A stretch of DNA of 64,000 bases, taken from Clostridiales bacterium. GTDB taxonomy: Bacteria > Bacillota > Clostridia > Christensenellales > Borkfalkiaceae. Position numbers and translations under genes: made by a program. Of this stretch, positions 26,461 through 55,599 are shown one piece after another (position 1 is the first letter of the stretch; every line of letters starts with the position of its first letter). A model generated the notes under the pieces. That model made no database searches and had not been told where the DNA came from. It saw only the letters and a list, made by a program, of their open reading frames with translations. Location: NCBI GenBank assembly GCA_015055965.1, contig SVHG01000011.1:9104-73103 (forward strand), in the 5' to 3' direction.

Positions 26461-29400
26461 TTAGTCTTTTTTAGCAAGCGTTTTATACTTAGCCAATCTT
26501 GCGTTGTTTTCTTCTTCAGCCTTTTCAAATAATTCGGCAGCTAATTCGGGTTGAGCCTTCTTTAAGCTGGTGTATCTGGTTTCGCCCATTAAGAATTCTT
26601 GATAGCTTGCAGTAGGATCTTTACTATCTAAAGTGAAGGGGTTACCTTCGGTGATAGCAGGATTGTATCTGTAAAGATGCCAGTAACCGGCGTCAACAGC
26701 CTTCTTTTCTTCAAGTTGAGAATTGCTCATATTGATACCGTGGTTGATACAGGGAGCGTAACAGATTAATAAAGAAGGTCCGTCGTAGCTTTCAGCTTCA
26801 ACAACAGCGTTTAAGAATTGTTGCTTGTTAGCACCCATAGAGCATTGTGCAACGTAAACGTAGCCGTAGCTCATAGCCATCATACCAAGGTCTTTCTTCT
26901 TAACTCTCTTACCGCCGGCAGCGAACTTAGCAACAGAGCCGGTGGGGGTAGACTTAGAAGCTTGACCGCCGGTGTTAGAGTAAACTTCGGTATCTAATAC
27001 TAAAACGTTTACGTCAACGTTCATAGCAAGAACGTGGTCTAAACCGCCGTAACCGATATCGTATGCCCAACCGTCACCACCGATAATCCAAATAGATTTC
27101 TTAATTAAGCAGTCGCTTTGAGCCTTGATTTCTTTAAGGATAACCTTAATTTCGCCACGGGTATTCTTAATAGCAGCAGGAAGCTCGCTGATAATAACCT
27201 TAGCGATTTCTTTACTCTTTTCTGCGCTGTTTCTATTTTCTAACCATTCAATAAGAGCTTTCTTAATCTTACCCTTAGCACCGTTAGCAATAGCAAGCTC
27301 TACGGTAGCAGCAAGCTTATCACGTCTTTGAGCGTAAGCAAGGTAGTAGCCGTAACCGTGTTCAGCGTTATCTTCGAATAATGAGTTAGCCCAAGCAGGT
27401 CCTTTGCCTTCAGCGTTCTTGGTGTAAGGACAGGTAGGAGCGCTACCGCCGTAAATAGAAGAACAACCGGTTGCGTTAGAAATAAGCATTCTATCGCCGA
27501 ATAATTGGGTAATAACCTTAATGTAAGGAGTTTCGCCACAGCCTGCGCATGCGCCGGAGAATTCAAATAGGGGTTTAGCAAATTGGCTACCCTTAACAGA
27601 GGTCTTCTTAAATGCAGAGGTGTCTACTTCGGGAAGTGATTCGCTGTAATCGTAGTTGGGAACTTCTTTAGCAGCAACCTTTTCAAAGGGAACCATAGTG
27701 ATTGCCTTTTCCTTTGCGGGACATACGTTAGCGCAAACACCGCAACCCATACAGTCTAGGGGAGAAACTTGCATTCTGTATTCAAATCCCTTAAGGCCCA
27801 TAGCTAGCTTAGTGGTGTAACCTTCAGGCTTTTCTGCGCCAACAGCGTTAAGAGCAGGTCTTAAACAAGCGTGGGGACATACGAAAGCACATTGGTTACA
27901 TTGAATACATTTTTCAGCATCCCAAACGGGTAACTTAATAGCAACACCGCGTTTTTCATATTGGGTAGTTCCGGTGGGAACTGAACCGTCTGCATTGAAA
28001 GCAGAAGAGGGAAGCTGATCGCCTTCTAAAGCAAGAATGGGGTGAACGATATTCTTGAAGTATTCAGTTCCGCCGATTTCAAGTGCGGGAGCGCCTTCTT
28101 CGGTGGTAGCCCAGTCAGCAGGAATAGCGATTTCTACTAATTCAGAAGAAGCTTTGTCGATAGCAGCGTAGTTCATGTTAACAACTGCGTCGCCCTTCTT
28201 GCCGTAGCTCTTCTTAACTGCAGCCTTCATATATTCTTCAGCATCAGCGTAAGGCATAATGTCTTGGTTAATGAAGAAGAAAGCAGCCTGCATGATTGCG
28301 TTGGTTCTTCCGCCAAGGCCGATTTCGCCGGCAATCTTAATAGCGTCAATATTATATAATTTAGCTTGCTTTTTAGCAAGTAAACGCTTCATAGAAGCGG
28401 GTAAGTGCTTGTTAAGCTCTTCAATGGTATTCCAAGAAGAGTTGAGTAGGAATTTACCGCCAACCTTTAAGTCCTTAACCATATCGTAACGAAGAACGTA
28501 AGAGGGGTTGTGGCAAGCAATAAAGTCAGCAGCGTCAATTAGGTAGGTTGACTGAATGGGAGTCTTACCAAATCTTAAGTGAGAAACGGTAATACCGCCT
28601 GACTTCTTAGAATCGTAGAAGAAGTAACCTTGAGCGTACATGTCGGTATGGTCACCGATAATCTTAATAGAGTTCTTGTTAGCGCCAACGGTACCGTCTG
28701 AGCCTAAGCCGTAGAACTTACAGCTGATAGTTCCTTCGGGAGCAGCGTCGTACTTTTCGCTGAAATCTAATGAAGTATTGGTGATATCGTCATAAATACC
28801 AACGGTGAAGTGATTCTTGGGTTTATCCTGTTCAAGATTCTTGTAAACAGAAAGAACCATAGAGGGGTTAAATTCCTTAGAACCTAAACCGTATCTACCG
28901 CCAACAACGGTAATTCTCTTCTTAGCTTCTGCTAAAGCGGTGCAAACGTCAAGATATAAGGGTTCGCCAAGGCTACCGGGTTCTTTAGTTCTATCTAAAA
29001 CGGCAATCTTCTTAGTGGTTTTGGGAAGAGCCTTTAAGAATGCTTTTGCAAAGAAAGGTCTGTATAATCTAACCTTAATTAAGCCGTACTTGTGGCCTTC
29101 TGCGTTAAGCTTGTTAATGGTTTCTTCAACACATTCAGCGCCGCTACCCATAATAACGATAACGTTTTCTGCATCAGGTGCACCAACGTAGTCGAATAAA
29201 TGATAGCTTCTGCCGGTAAGCTTAGAAACCTTATCCATCATCTTTTGAACGATTTCAGGGGTAGCTTCATAGTAGCAGTTAGCAGTTTCCTTGTTTTGGA
29301 AATAGATATCTGCGTTTTGAGCAGTACCTTTTTGGATGGGGTGGTCGGGGTTAAGAGCGCGTTGTCTGAATTCTTCAATATCACTCATATCAACGAGCTT

Positions 29401-29970
29401 TTTCATTTCGTCATATTCAATAGCGTCAATCTTTTGAACTTCGTGGCTGGTTCTAAAACCGTCAAAGAAGTGTAAGAAGGGCACTTTGCACTTTAAGGTA
29501 GAAAGATGAGCAACTAAAGCAAGGTCCATAACTTCTTGAACGGAAGCTGAAGAAAGCATTGCAAAACCCGTTTGACGGCAAGCCATAACGTCTGAATGGT
29601 CACCGAAAATGTTTAATGCTTGACCGGCAACAGCTCTCGCGCTAACGTGGAATACGGTAGGAAGTAATTCACCCGCGATTTTATACATATTGGGAATCAT
29701 TAAAAGTAAGCCTTGGCTTGCGGTATAGGTAACCGTTAAAGCACCGGCAGAAAGTGAGCCGTGAACAGCGCCTGCTGCGCCACCTTCAGATTGAAGCTCT
29801 GCAAGTAATAGCTTTTGGCCAAACATGTTTTCTCTGCCGGCAGTAGCCCATTCGTCAGCTACTTCAGCCATGGGTGAAGAAGGGGTTATCGGGTAAATAG
29901 CTGCAACTTCACTAAACGCATACGCAACGTGGCTGGCAGCGGTATTACCGTCAATGGTCATTTTTTTCAT
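26461..29970 (-). CDS. nifJ: Pyruvate:ferredoxin (flavodoxin) oxidoreductase, single polypeptide
   Basis: 'AAYPITPSSPMAE' type start, 2x[4Fe-4S] 'CIQCNQCAFVCPHAC' and 'CMGCGVCANVCPAKE', TPP-binding 'GGDGWAYDIGYGGLDHVLA'. Confidence 0.95.
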   Translation of the reverse strand: MKKMTIDGNTAASHVAYAFSEVAAIYPITPSSPMAEVADEWATAGRENMFGQKLLLAELQSEGGAAGAVHGSLSAGALTVTYTASQGLLLMIPNMYKIAGELLPTVFHVSARAVAGQALNIFGDHSDVMACRQTGFAMLSSASVQEVMDLALVAHLSTLKCKVPFLHFFDGFRTSHEVQKIDAIEYDEMKKLVDMSDIEEFRQRALNPDHPIQKGTAQNADIYFQNKETANCYYEATPEIVQKMMDKVSKLTGRSYHLFDYVGAPDAENVIVIMGSGAECVEETINKLNAEGHKYGLIKVRLYRPFFAKAFLKALPKTTKKIAVLDRTKEPGSLGEPLYLDVCTALAEAKKRITVVGGRYGLGSKEFNPSMVLSVYKNLEQDKPKNHFTVGIYDDITNTSLDFSEKYDAAPEGTISCKFYGLGSDGTVGANKNSIKIIGDHTDMYAQGYFFYDSKKSGGITVSHLRFGKTPIQSTYLIDAADFIACHNPSYVLRYDMVKDLKVGGKFLLNSSWNTIEELNKHLPASMKRLLAKKQAKLYNIDAIKIAGEIGLGGRTNAIMQAAFFFINQDIMPYADAEEYMKAAVKKSYGKKGDAVVNMNYAAIDKASSELVEIAIPADWATTEEGAPALEIGGTEYFKNIVHPILALEGDQLPSSAFNADGSVPTGTTQYEKRGVAIKLPVWDAEKCIQCNQCAFVCPHACLRPALNAVGAEKPEGYTTKLAMGLKGFEYRMQVSPLDCMGCGVCANVCPAKEKAITMVPFEKVAAKEVPNYDYSESLPEVDTSAFKKTSVKGSQFAKPLFEFSGACAGCGETPYIKVITQLFGDRMLISNATGCSSIYGGSAPTCPYTKNAEGKGPAWANSLFEDNAEHGYGYYLAYAQRRDKLAATVELAIANGAKGKIKKALIEWLENRNSAEKSKEIAKVIISELPAAIKNTRGEIKVILKEIKAQSDCLIKKSIWIIGGDGWAYDIGYGGLDHVLAMNVDVNVLVLDTEVYSNTGGQASKSTPTGSVAKFAAGGKRVKKKDLGMMAMSYGYVYVAQCSMGANKQQFLNAVVEAESYDGPSLLICYAPCINHGINMSNSQLEEKKAVDAGYWHLYRYNPAITEGNPFTLDSKDPTASYQEFLMGETRYTSLKKAQPELAAELFEKAEEENNARLAKYKTLAKKD

Positions 29971-30487
29971 TGAAAAACCTCCGTTTAATATTGAAAAATT
30001 AATTATTTTTAAGTCATTTGCGCGCTTTCTTTTTTAACGCACCTTTCATATTATATAACTTATTTAATTATAAGTCAATAGATAGTAGCAAAATTTTAAA
30101 AATTTTTGCATTTTTATTTTGTTTTTATACGCCCATATTCATATTTTAACATTAAAATTGTGTATAACGGGGTTTTTAGTGGGTGCGTTTTATTAAGCAA
30201 CCGTTAAATATTTTATTAAAAAATAGGGTTTTTAGGGCTTTTTTTACCACTTTTTTATCAATTTTTTTGTTTTTATTAACACTTTTACTTATTGCAAAAT
30301 ATTACCTAATCCCTTTTGCAAGCAAAAATGCAGTAAAGGGGTAACACTTTACCCTTTTTGTTTTTTTTGGCTTTTTTTGCATTAGGGGTAGGGCTCTACG
30401 TTATGTTCTTTATTCGCAAACGCTATCATTACGTTAGTTCTTAGACTCTATCACTTCGCTTTGCTCGTTCCAGAGTGACAAATACCT

Positions 30488-30517
30488 GTCATTCTGGAGC
30501 GTAAGCGATAGAATCTC
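30488..30517 (+). repeat. GTCATTCTGGAG-hairpin-GATAGAATCTC element
   Basis: Same framework at 41567 and 42309 and inverted near 37706. Confidence 0.75.
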
Positions 30518-30519
30518 TT

Positions 30520-30626
30520 TTGCGTAAGCAATCACGCATTTATGCGTGTATGTAATTGTTTAAGTAGTAAACGTATGTAATCAGTCGCAGACTGTATGTC
30601 ATCACACCACGAGGTGTGTATATAAT
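30520..30626 (+). repeat. Hairpin array A: different stems separated by TATGTAAT-type linkers
   Basis: CACGCAtttaTGCGTG / GTTTAagtagTAAAC / CAGTCgcaGACTG / CACACCacgaGGTGTG with linkers TATGTAAT, TATGTAAT, TATGTCAT, TATATAAT. Confidence 0.85.
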
Positions 30627-30642
30627 AAGAGCCATCCCTAAA

Positions 30643-30725
30643 TTCGCTTGGGGCGAACATCATTTTGCGTGAAGCAAAACATCATTTGAGTCTTACTCAA
30701 TCATCATTTGCTTTAGCAATATCAT
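30643..30725 (+). repeat. Hairpin array B: different stems separated by CATCAT linkers
   Basis: TTCGCttgggGCGAA / TTTTGCgtgaaGCAAAA / TTGAGTcttACTCAA / TTGCtttaGCAA with CATCAT or TATCAT between. Confidence 0.85.
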
Positions 30726-30765
30726 TACGTTAGTTGATAGGCTCTATCACCTCGCTTCGCTGAAA

Positions 30766-30988
30766 TTTTGCCTTCTCCTGCGGGAGAAGGTGTCACGAGT
30801 TTTCGAGTGACGGATGAGGAGTTGTATATAATTAGTGCTTTAATTTTTATTTATATTTTTTACCAAAACACCTCATCCACCACTAACGTGGTCCCCCTTC
30901 CCCCACTGGGGAAGGCTCTTTTACAACACCTGTAAACCTCTACCAAGCCACGCGACTATCGCGTGGTTTTTCTATATATCAAAAAAAG
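30766..30988. repeat. About 220-bp dispersed intergenic repeat, copy 2
   Basis: Near-identical to 25839-26060. Confidence 0.85.
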
Positions 30989-31020
30989 GGCTATAGCGCG
31001 ATTAACTCACGTTATAGCCC
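30988..31020. repeat. Palindromic CTATAG element
   Basis: GGGCTATAgcgcgattaactcacgtTATAGCCC. Confidence 0.72.
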
Positions 31021-31070: not shown

Positions 31071-34000
31071 TTATCTAACTAAAATCTTGTTAATAGTTAA
31101 ATCAATAGTTAAGCCTTCTTGCCAGCTGATAAGCCCGAAGCCACCGTTTTGATGTACGGTGTAGCTCTTGCCAACTGAAGAGCCGTCTAAAGCAACGCTA
31201 ACTGATGAGCCGTTAGCTGCAACGGTAATAAAATCACCTTCAACGGTTACTTCAAAGGTAGTGCCTAAAACCTGACCGTTAAATACCCAACCGCCAATGT
31301 AATCGCAAATTAGCGCCGTGCCATCTGTATTATAGCAGTTTTGTAAGTAGAAAATTTGAACGTACTGTTGGGTTGCATTAGAAACGAAGTTTACTAAGTA
31401 ACCGTCTATACCGTTACCGGTAGCGTTCTTTTTGCATCTTACAAAGTAACCTGCAACGGAAACGTTGCCGTTTGCGTTAGAAGGAGTTACGGTTAGGGTA
31501 GAGTTAGCGCATTCAAGAGCGGTATAAAGCTTAAAGCCGAATTCCTTACCGCTAAATAATCCGTTATTTCCACCGGTGATGTTAGCAGGATTAAATGAGT
31601 GAATGCTTTCGCTTCCCTTTAAAGCGGTAACGATTTCTTGGGTTTTATCGATTGCTTGAACAGGTTCTTTAGTAATTTTACCGCTAACGTTATCTATAGT
31701 AAGAGTGCATTTTGCATTATTACCGCTATCCCAAGCAAGAATACCAATACCGCCTTCTGCCCAAGGAGTAAACGCGCCCTTATTTGTTAAATCAACGCTA
31801 CAGCCGTAAGAATCACTACCTTTTGTTCTAAAGTCAGCTTCTGTGTAAATATAGCACATATTGCCTTCGATAACCGCTCTAAATAGAGTGTTTTCTACTT
31901 CGCCGGGGAATACCCAACCGCCGATATAGGTCATGTTCTTAAACATGGTTGCGCTACCGAATGAATCGTTGAAGTACCAAACTTGAATGTAGTTGGGCTC
32001 GGTTACGATATTAATCATATAACCTTCAATACCTAAGCCGGCAAGCTGTTTAGCTCTAAATAGAATACCGGTTGTGCCAACCTCGTTAACTAAATCGCTT
32101 AAGCAGAAGGTGAAGCTCATATCGCTGTAATAGGTGTTATCAACGACTCTGTGACCGTCGTGTTCAACGTTATAAACGCCGTTAACGCTTGAATCAAGCG
32201 CGTTTTTGAAGGTTGCAGTTTCCCAAACTACGCATCCGTTGTTGCCAACCATATCTGCGTAAACGTATTCTGTATTTCTCTTAATAGCCTTTAGGCTAGT
32301 AATATATGAAGATAAATCTAATTCTTCAACGGCTTCTAAGCTTTCGCAAGCTTCAATTAAAGCCATAGCAGCTTCGTAGTGGGGTTTAGCAGTATCCCAT
32401 TCAGCGCTTCTGTAAGAAGCTTCTCTGTAATCGTAAAGCTCAATTGCCTTTAACGCTTTAGCCTTTGCTAATAATTCCTGTAAAAGCTCGTCGCTCATTT
32501 CGGGCTGACCAACGCCGTCTAACGCATTCTTAATTGCGGGAACGATCTTTTGAACGTAACCGTTAGCGGTGGGGTGTAATCCGTCGGTAAACCAGTAAGA
32601 GTCCGCATCAACACCGTTATCGCAGAACGCGTATTCTACCTCTGCGTAAGACATCCAAGTATATTGAGCAACTAAATCTCTCATTAATTCGTTGGTTGCA
32701 GAAATACTTGCTTTAATATTAGCTCTTGCAGGGCAGTGGTTTACAGAAAGTAGTACTACCTCTAATTCGGGCTTAGCTTCCTTCATGTAAAGTAAAGCTT
32801 CTTCTATGCTTGCAACTACTGCAGCAGGTGAAGTACCGCCGGTTAGGTCGTTAATACCGATCATGTAAATTGCCTTTGATGCGTCGTATGCTACTAACGC
32901 CTTTTTGAATTTTGCCCAATGTGATGCTACTGATCCACCAATACCGATATTTAAGTAAGTACCAAATTCGTAATCTTCAGCAAGCTGAGCTAAATCGTTT
33001 TTGTAGTTAGACCATAATTCAAAGTAAGAGTGGCCGAATAGTAAGGTGTCTACCTTGGTTACGCTGGGTTCTGCGCTTACTGCGTATCCGGCAAACTGGC
33101 TACCGGCTGATTCTGCGTAAAGACCAACGCCCGTGCCTGCTAATTCAACGTCTACTACTGCGTATAGGGTGTTCCAGAAATAGCAGTATGCAACGCCCTC
33201 TTCAATAACTACTCTAAAGTCGTAACCTCTACCGCTGTTGTAGCCAGCTGATAGGTAGTTAGAATATACGTTTGAAGCAACGCCGTTAACAACCATGTCA
33301 AGCTCTACCTTTTGCGCGTCCTTTCTGGAAACGAAGCGGTAATAGCTTTCGGTAGTTCCGTCGTTAGAATAACCGAATACAAGACCTGCTCTCTTAGTAG
33401 CAACGCCCTTGATGTTAGCGGTTAAAGTACCTTCTTCCATAGAAGCGTCCTTCATTAAAGCAAGAGTGTTATTGTCGGCAGAGCGAGCTGCGCCGCTAGT
33501 ACCTAACATCTTACCGCTTACAACCGTTAAATCTTCAGGGTATATTTCTGTAATTTCCCCGCTGGACTGACATTTAATATTGCTAAATGAAACGCCGCTA
33601 CCGCCGGCTCTTAAGCCGTAACCCGTGCCGGTTAGGGGGAAGCTGTCTGCGTAAGTAATTAAACAATTTCCGTCAACGTAACCGTAAATGGTGGTTGCGT
33701 CCTTTTCTATCTTAAGGGTGTATGATTTATTAGTTGTATATCCGGGGATATCTACAAGCTGGCAGTTTGCCCAAGTTCCGTTATCAACCTTACCTAAGAA
33801 TGCGTATCCGTCCTTAGAAACGAAGAAGAAGTAGTAAGAAACGTCTGCTTCCCAGTATGCGTGGGTATCGTTAGCAGTTAAGCTAAAGATTAAGCCGTTA
33901 TCTGCCGCGCCGCCAATCTTCATAGTTGCTTCTAAAGTGCCGTAAATAAATTCGCCGTCTATCTTTTCTGCAATTGCGTTACCCGTTAAAGAGGTAAGCA

Positions 34001-34934
34001 TATCGCCCTTTTGTTCGTATTCACCGCTTGCAATAACGTATCCTTCAACAGCAACGCTAGCGCCTTTAATTTCGCTTGAAATTTCTATTCCGCTAAACTG
34101 AATACCCGCTTTACCTGCTCTTACGCCGTAAACAGTTCCGTCAACGTGGTTAGAATCCTTATATGAAACGTAAAGCTCGCCGTTAACGTAACATCTAATA
34201 ACGTCGTATCCGCTATTGCTCTTATCTCTTGCAACCTCTAAGGTGTAAATACCTCTTGCATTGTAACCGGGAATGGGGGTTTCACCGCAAACGGTCCAGG
34301 TTTGGTTGCTTACCTTTCCTAGGTATGCAGTACCTGCGTTAGAAATGAAGAAGAAGAAATAGTGAACGCCTTCGTGTTCCCAATATGCGTTTAGAGCTTT
34401 TTCATTCTTTAAACCGAATACGATACCGTTATCGCCACCTGTGCCTGCTAGGCTTACGGTTGCCTTTAAAGTACCTTGAACGAACTCGTCTTCGGTATTA
34501 ATAGCTAGAGTGTTTGCCATACCGCTTATTAAAGTTCCTTCGTTTTCGGTAATAGAACCGTATACGGCCTTGTACTGATAATCGGGTACTATAACGGGAG
34601 GTTCTTCTCCGCCCGTGCTAGAGCTATCCTCGCTTGAAGAATCCTCAATAGAACTGTCTTCGCTTGATGAGCTATCTTCGCTTGATGAAGAGCTGTCTTC
34701 TGAAGAAGCGCTACTAGAAGAGTCCTCTAAAGAGCTATCTTCACTTGATGAATTCTCTGAAGAAATTGATTCCTCTACTGAAATAGATGAACTGTTTTCA
34801 CTTTCGCTTGTGCTTACTTGGGGAGCGCCGTCACCGCCGGGAACGGCCTGACATGCTATAACCATAGTCATGCTAAACAAGCAAAGTGCAATAACGGTTA
34901 ATAAAACCGCTACTTTTTTGAAAAAGGTTTGCAT
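31071..34934 (-). CDS. Large secreted lipoprotein: Ser/Asp/Glu-rich linker, LamG-like repeats and central SGNH/GDSL hydrolase domain
   Basis: Lipobox 'TMVIACQA'; 'SSSEDSSSSSEDSS' linker; SGNH blocks 'LLFGHSYFELW', 'NIGIGGS', 'IGINDL', 'DGLHPTANGY'. Confidence 0.8.
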   Translation of the reverse strand: MQTFFKKVAVLLTVIALCLFSMTMVIACQAVPGGDGAPQVSTSESENSSSISVEESISSENSSSEDSSLEDSSSSASSEDSSSSSEDSSSSEDSSIEDSSSEDSSSTGGEEPPVIVPDYQYKAVYGSITENEGTLISGMANTLAINTEDEFVQGTLKATVSLAGTGGDNGIVFGLKNEKALNAYWEHEGVHYFFFFISNAGTAYLGKVSNQTWTVCGETPIPGYNARGIYTLEVARDKSNSGYDVIRCYVNGELYVSYKDSNHVDGTVYGVRAGKAGIQFSGIEISSEIKGASVAVEGYVIASGEYEQKGDMLTSLTGNAIAEKIDGEFIYGTLEATMKIGGAADNGLIFSLTANDTHAYWEADVSYYFFFVSKDGYAFLGKVDNGTWANCQLVDIPGYTTNKSYTLKIEKDATTIYGYVDGNCLITYADSFPLTGTGYGLRAGGSGVSFSNIKCQSSGEITEIYPEDLTVVSGKMLGTSGAARSADNNTLALMKDASMEEGTLTANIKGVATKRAGLVFGYSNDGTTESYYRFVSRKDAQKVELDMVVNGVASNVYSNYLSAGYNSGRGYDFRVVIEEGVAYCYFWNTLYAVVDVELAGTGVGLYAESAGSQFAGYAVSAEPSVTKVDTLLFGHSYFELWSNYKNDLAQLAEDYEFGTYLNIGIGGSVASHWAKFKKALVAYDASKAIYMIGINDLTGGTSPAAVVASIEEALLYMKEAKPELEVVLLSVNHCPARANIKASISATNELMRDLVAQYTWMSYAEVEYAFCDNGVDADSYWFTDGLHPTANGYVQKIVPAIKNALDGVGQPEMSDELLQELLAKAKALKAIELYDYREASYRSAEWDTAKPHYEAAMALIEACESLEAVEELDLSSYITSLKAIKRNTEYVYADMVGNNGCVVWETATFKNALDSSVNGVYNVEHDGHRVVDNTYYSDMSFTFCLSDLVNEVGTTGILFRAKQLAGLGIEGYMINIVTEPNYIQVWYFNDSFGSATMFKNMTYIGGWVFPGEVENTLFRAVIEGNMCYIYTEADFRTKGSDSYGCSVDLTNKGAFTPWAEGGIGILAWDSGNNAKCTLTIDNVSGKITKEPVQAIDKTQEIVTALKGSESIHSFNPANITGGNNGLFSGKEFGFKLYTALECANSTLTVTPSNANGNVSVAGYFVRCKKNATGNGIDGYLVNFVSNATQQYVQIFYLQNCYNTDGTALICDYIGGWVFNGQVLGTTFEVTVEGDFITVAANGSSVSVALDGSSVGKSYTVHQNGGFGLISWQEGLTIDLTINKILVR

Positions 34935-41611: not shown

Positions 41612-41677
41612 CATCATTTTGCGTTAGCAAAACATCATTTGCTTTAGCAATATCATTTTGTAAGCCACGCTTACAAC
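41612..41677 (+). repeat. Hairpin array B, short copy
   Basis: CATCAT TTTGCgttaGCAAAA CATCAT TTGCtttaGCAA TATCAT TTGTAAGCcacGCTTACAA. Confidence 0.8.
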
Positions 41678-55406: not shown

Positions 55407-55591
55407 TACTTAACGGCGGTGAGGAAGGTAAAGCTCCCGTTGGTAGTTAACGGCGGTTGTAACTGTAAAAAACCGTTAGTAGTTATTGACGGTGGGGAGG
55501 GTAAAGCTCCTATCGGTAGTTATCGGCGGTTGTAACTGTAAAAAACCGTTGGTAGTTATTGGCGGTTGTAAATATAAAGCGCCTTTGGTAG
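55407..55591. repeat. Tandem repeat, about 38-nt unit, about 5 units, with internally self-complementary units
   Basis: 'GGCGGTTGTAACTGTAAAAAACCGTTgGTAGTTATT' recurring; ends of units pair (AACGG...CCGTT, GGCG...CGCC). Confidence 0.85.
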
Positions 55592-55599
55592 ATAAATAA

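Follow-up and report, generated by a model that had tools for sequence, protein, structure and literature searches.

The array studied here is intergenic in a 64-kb window (the whole stretch of DNA analysed, 64,000 nucleotides), flanked by the 5' end of a pyruvate:ferredoxin oxidoreductase-like gene (26461-29970, minus strand) and by a lipoprotein-like gene (31071-34934, minus strand), both names being assigned by reading the sequence. The source assembly is 2.06 Mb in size and 96% complete. A sequence-only reading of the window had described four perfect hairpins in a row with joining linkers, and both were confirmed at 30533-30626 (Table 1). The probability of a perfect end stem of at least 5 was 0.007 per random window 13-17-mer and about 2e-9 for four consecutive ones, so that this run of hairpins is not due to chance. 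The structure as a whole is larger than had been described, since it also comprises a hairpin at the left end (30520-30531) and, at 30643-30726, four more hairpins that form a second array with the linker CATCATT. Hairpin 2 has a perfect core, GTTTA/TAAAC (30558-30572), which can be extended by a T.G pair, and is present as TGTTTACGTAGTAAACG, CATTTACGCAGTAAACG and CGTTTACACGGTAAACG in other copies.

Table 1. Features of the array and of the repeat that contains it (window coordinates)
Feature	Position	Strand	Basis
Interspersed-repeat core, 217 bp, both half-arrays	30518-30734	-	Block shared in own-genome blastn; alignment of copies
Left-end hairpin TTGC-GTAA-GCAA	30520-30531		Sequence; also in L028, L029, L036, L037, L041, L042
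Hairpin 1 CACGCA-TTTA-TGCGTG	30533-30548		Sequence and chance estimate
Linker TATGTAAT	30549-30556		Pattern match
Hairpin 2 TGTTTA-AGTAG-TAAACG	30557-30573		Sequence and chance estimate
Linker TATGTAAT	30574-30581		Pattern match
Hairpin 3 CAGTC-GCA-GACTG	30582-30594		Sequence; whole unit missing from subfamily B
Linker TATGTCAT	30595-30602		Pattern match
Hairpin 4 CACACC-ACGA-GGTGTG	30603-30618		Sequence and copy alignment
Linker TATATAAT	30619-30626		Pattern match
Centre between half-arrays, AAGAGCCATCCCTAAA	30627-30642		Sequence and copy alignment
Array 2 hairpin TTCGC-TTGGG-GCGAA	30643-30657		Sequence and copy alignment
Array 2 hairpin TTTTGC-GTGAA-GCAAAA	30663-30679		Sequence and copy alignment
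Array 2 hairpin TTGAGT-CTT-ACTCAA	30686-30700		Sequence; exactly one such unit missing in L028
Array 2 hairpin TTGC-TTTA-GCAA	30708-30719		Sequence and copy alignment
Array 2 linkers	30658-30726	-	CATCA/CATCATT at 30658, 30680, 30702; TATCATT at 30720

Other repeats were noticed in the window. At 30443-30520, GTCATTCTGGAGCG...GATAGAATCT occurs together with an inverted form, CCAGAGTGACA; this repeat is very common in the genome and frames some of the array copies. The inverted pair CCTTCTCC..GGAGAAGG ... CCTCATCCACC..CCCCTTCCCC at 30768-30935 belongs to a separate family with no relation to the array. Array 2 recurs in truncated form (CATCATTTTGCGTTAGCAAAACATCATTTGCTTTAGCAATATCATT) at 41613-41658, where a GTCATTCTGGAG-type repeat precedes it and a start codon follows after about 35 nt. 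At 55410-55595, CGGCGGTTGTAACTGTAAAAAACCG units are repeated in tandem with a period of 73 and subunits of about 36.

Dispersed copies and conservation of pairing

A genome-wide search for the linker-insert-linker pattern, of the kind that the sequence-only reading had proposed, returned 26 matches against 1 for a reversed-pattern control. Used as a BLAST query, the window locus gave 65 matches in its own genome. At least 8 of the copies are full or nearly full versions of a 217-bp repeat, with 80-98% identity over 30518-30734 and different flanks. Loci are labelled L### and genomes G### below. Two subfamilies were recognised, one with hairpins CACGCA, GTTTA, CAGTC and CACACC (the window, L028, L029 and L032) and the other, subfamily B, with CACGCG, CAACGA, TTTAC and CACACC (L036, L037, L041 and L042), and they differ by whole hairpin-linker units; array 2 of L028 is likewise short by exactly one unit. 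Other arrays in the genome (L026, L055 and L015) have mostly different stems. In a terminal-repeat check for a MITE, an outer inverted sequence of GTCATTCTGGAG type was found to be common to L027-L029 and not to the other copies, and no target-site duplication could be delimited. At L026 (positions 1400-1560; G000:C19 near 113486) we observed seven hairpins, including a duplicated two-hairpin block, which abut the start of an MgtE-like gene and could form a leader RNA before it.

Comparison of loci and of species bears out the central claim made earlier, of conserved pairing and conserved linkers with stems whose sequence is not conserved. TATGTAAT-type linkers enclose 73 distinct inserts, drawn from the source genome, its relatives and rumen Clostridia, with 40 different 5' arms among them. 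The outer five positions of these inserts were Watson-Crick paired in 88% of cases, against 46% after shuffling of arms (maximum 54% in 5000 shuffles), and the inner three positions in 85% against 28%. Stem sequence varies across loci, as had been proposed, but the copies within the genome largely share their stems, and change among them consists mostly of the gain or loss of whole units, so that some of the variation amounts to repeat evolution of the ordinary kind.

The complete element in related genomes

Scanning GTDB genomes for the pattern yielded 16 stretches, nearly all from rumen or gut MAGs of Clostridia, and arrays with TATGTAATC or other linkers were present in genomes of the same family and in rumen or gut Clostridia. 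One match, in Kouleothrix (L095), was rejected as a family member, its inserts being non-hairpin and the match probably due to chance. The layout in the relatives is an RNA or other gene, a terminator T-run, a hairpin, a forward array, a reverse array with GATTACATA linkers and a small gene. A full element has about four hairpins joined by a linker X and then about three joined by the reverse complement of X; the stable-RNA gene ahead of it is a tRNA, a tmRNA or, once, a 5S gene plus a tRNA, followed by a long hairpin or terminator. The small gene belongs to TIGR02436/PF05635, the four-helix-bundle protein of 23S rRNA intervening sequences (IVP/S23).

PF05635 was found in 20 of 81 relatives. 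An array lies upstream of 21 of 30 fetched IVP genes (L106, L108, L110-L119, L122, L123, L125-L130 and L133), calls that were made by reading since the automatic array score separates poorly, with AT-rich shuffles reaching 3-4. In these elements the array ends shortly before the IVP start codon. The linker is AATGATG, TGAAAT, ATGAATT, GTTATATT, ATGATAT, ACATAAT, TTATCAT, ATGAAGTC or TATGTAATC, and in each case the second half carries the reverse complement. The linker types number more than nine in all, and the combination of TATGTAATC with a hairpin occurs with IVP genes in G002, G023 and G025. At 12 of the 21 loci ARAGORN placed a tRNA or tmRNA no more than 500 nt upstream, and Rfam added a tmRNA at L108. 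Of seven class-level IVP upstream regions, one (L207, in a genome of another order) has an array with the linker pair GCTAAAT/ATTTAGC after a tmRNA and another (L208) a Gut-1-like half-array; no array was found in the other five, several of which have simple AAATGGCAAAT-like repeats. Just upstream of the array-less IVP genes L103, L206, L209 and L210 we noticed simple AATGCAAAATGCAAA or AAATGGCAAATTG repeats.

The array-linked IVP gene of the source genome (L126) has an AATGATG-type element and lies after a tRNA-Arg gene. The same element occupies the same tRNA-Arg place in G001, of the same genus, with 98% identity, and is absent from the matching tRNA-Arg sites examined in other genomes of the family and order, most of which have only a terminator. 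One of these sites (L217 in G010) apparently carries a further array type with the linker CACAGT (GTTTGTGGCAATAGCCACAACTTAGTTTAGCAGTTATGCTAACACAG). As candidate means of movement within the source genome, reverse transcription and a Y1 transposase were both rejected, since no RVT_1 gene and no Y1_Tnp (PF01797) gene were found in the assembly.

No PF05635 gene lies directly downstream of the array among the ORFs of the window; both IVP genes of the genome are elsewhere, and the genome yielded no member of the TATGTAATC IVP clade. The TATGTAAT half of the window copy resembles arrays of the IVP clade seen in G002, of the same genus, whereas its other half, CATCATT (AATGATG on the minus strand), has the linker of the L126 element and resembles its clade. 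The two halves are not complementary. Having neither complementary halves nor a gene, the window copy appears, from its sequence, to be a hybrid, non-autonomous and gene-less derivative.

Linker complementarity and agreement with the protein tree

In 54 elements, the reverse complement of the forward linker was found 174 times in the element's own reverse half; swapping linkers between elements lowered this to 64 on average (94 at most), and complementarity held in most of the 54. The linkers of the two halves are thus reverse complements that change together, a stronger regularity than the single-half design described earlier, in which the conservation of linkers had been recognised but, only one half being seen, their complementarity had been missed. 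Inverted pairs in the source genome with linkers GTGAAGT, TGATGTT, TGAAATC and others also keep complementary halves. An inverted duplication would by itself yield such halves, though the hairpins of the two halves differ.

Array-associated IVPs cluster on the IVP tree, with 3 label changes against 20.3 after shuffling, and the four commonest linker types form one clade each (3 changes, the minimum, against 10.9). Array and gene may simply have been inherited together, which accounts for this agreement without specific recognition, and binding of the RNA by the IVP is therefore something that we infer. Folding predicted a mixture of local hairpins and cross-half linker pairing. In a G.U versus A.C strand test the large raw effect came from constant linker bases, which were excluded from the restricted count. 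At L116, L117, L126, L129 and L165 the first hairpin's 5' arm plus linker could base-pair in two ways, since they are complementary to the 3' arm of that hairpin and also to the centre that separates the halves; this suggests two alternative folds.

Relation to the Gut-1 RNA

The sequence-only reading knew of no named element with such a design; Gut-1 (RF01706) is a named parallel. Its Rfam consensus has three hairpins with weakly conserved stems and a constant GUGAAAU linker, and Gut-1 was described among likely or candidate noncoding RNAs, from the human gut only (Weinberg et al. 2010, PMC2864571). The Gut-1 model scored above threshold on the forward half of L113 and L129 and at about 1e-6 on L119 and L116, with weaker matches on the opposite strand to the reverse half of L127-L129 and L119. 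Matches were obtained in 99 of 396 genomes of the order, often ten or more in each, and many of the fetched loci lie directly after a tRNA and its terminator; an IVP gene was nearby in only 3 of the fetched loci, several of which are at contig ends. Matches with E no higher than 2e-4 number 14 in the source genome and are mostly gene-less inverted pairs, in which copies differ in linker but retain complementary halves.

Within the window, the Gut-1 covariance model gave no match at 30300-31000 even at E up to 10 (gathering score 50 bits), and nothing in Rfam reached its gathering score over the 64 kb. L177, which is the reverse complement of array 2 of the window, does match Gut-1 (32.1 bits, E=1.8e-4), and it sets the orientation of the 217-bp core, which is read on the minus strand with the Gut-1-like half first. 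That Gut-1 is the described type of a broad hairpin-linker family which includes the window repeat is well supported.

Interpretation and alternatives

The architecture of the element and its membership of this family are well supported. The array is half of a gene-less 217-bp repeat, and on balance it is probable that its family consists of selfish hairpin-linker elements, similar to the intervening sequences (IVSs) of 23S rRNA, whose RNA is bound by the IVP. Such an element would be transcribed together with the IVP gene, each of its hairpins would fold by itself, and pairing of the linkers of one half with their complements in the other would give a rod of stacked junctions. The IVP may bind, at the linker helix, the RNA of its own element and help to keep or move that element, selfish like the IVSs; the gene-less copies, that of the window included, would be non-autonomous or decayed.

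One may ask whether the arrays, instead of being mobile by themselves, control the IVP or nearby genes, either as structured 5' leaders or as separate small RNAs. The position of the arrays just before the IVP start codon, the seven hairpins directly ahead of the MgtE-like gene, the listing of Gut-1 among likely noncoding RNAs, and a left-end arm that pairs with hairpin 1 or with the centre at L117, L116, L126, L129 and L165, like a two-state switch, are all consistent with this. However, many gene-less copies lie in unrelated intergenic places in either orientation, on the minus strand the window array itself follows the 3' end of one gene and precedes the 5' end of another, and the tRNA-linked copy is patchy between genomes; we consider a leader unlikely.

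Slippage might also copy units between identical linkers, with template switching correcting the palindromes and keeping stems perfect without any function. Whole-unit loss in L028 and tandem unit duplication in L026, L092, L094 and L096 fit this process, and template switching would leave perfect stems of unrelated sequence. Yet the matched change of linkers in both halves across many types, the agreement between linker type and IVP tree, and the stereotyped place beside stable-RNA genes are unexplained by it, which makes a neutral origin quite improbable. We give slightly less credence still to an action at the level of DNA, in which the hairpins would be single-stranded structures like REP/BIME, substrates of HUH transposases, or replication or nucleoid sites. 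Dispersed, intergenic palindromic repeats with a constant flank, and the common closing of loops as C-NNN-G or C-NNNN-G, agree with it, but the genome lacks a Y1_Tnp gene, many copies stand directly 3' of stable-RNA gene terminators, and the partner gene family is tied to rRNA insertions and DGRs and not to hairpin-DNA transposition.

A broader view can be offered, tentatively and as less than an even chance: that gut Clostridia harbour a class of selfish RNAs with a linker code for each IVP lineage, in which stems drift under pairing and the linkers of both halves track the protein, Gut-1 being one half of one subtype. No paper joining Gut-1-type arrays with PF05635/TIGR02436 was found in the openly licensed literature, so that the link to IVP genes is apparently unreported, as apparently is the rule that linkers are complementary between halves and change together. 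Since 2010 Gut-1 has been given no function, and IVP/S23 proteins have no known role outside rRNA; a link between the two gives each a testable partner, and gives the Gut-1 motif a genomic context in which fuller versions adjoin tRNA or tmRNA genes and carry an IVP gene. If true, the two-level rule of self-complementary hairpins and of complementary cross-half linkers that follow the clade of the protein would represent an unusual instance of co-evolution between an RNA repeat and a protein.

Comparison with known systems

Like Gut-1, the window array combines variable-stem hairpins with a constant short linker; both are abundant in gut Clostridia, and the Gut-1 model covers the forward half of many IVP-linked elements. 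They differ in the linker (GUGAAAU against TATGTAAT in array 1 and AATGATG, minus strand, in array 2), and the Rfam model spans one half without a gene. The IVSs of 23S rRNA, described as selfish in Coxiella (PMC4990558), are likewise structured RNA elements with a PF05635 gene. They lie inside rRNA genes, whereas the array elements stand beside tRNA or tmRNA genes or are dispersed, and no rRNA match was found within the 64-kb window, so that the copy there is not inside a 23S rRNA gene; the array elements also have hairpin arrays, and the window copy is without the gene. REP/BIME sequences with a RAYT (Y1) protein are similar in being dispersed, intergenic palindromes with a constant flank, but the array stems vary between units and the genome has no Y1_Tnp. 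In CRISPR, too, a short constant sequence alternates with a variable one; the constant part of the array is 8-9 nt, and CRISPR is ruled out by inserts that are self-complementary and recur between loci.
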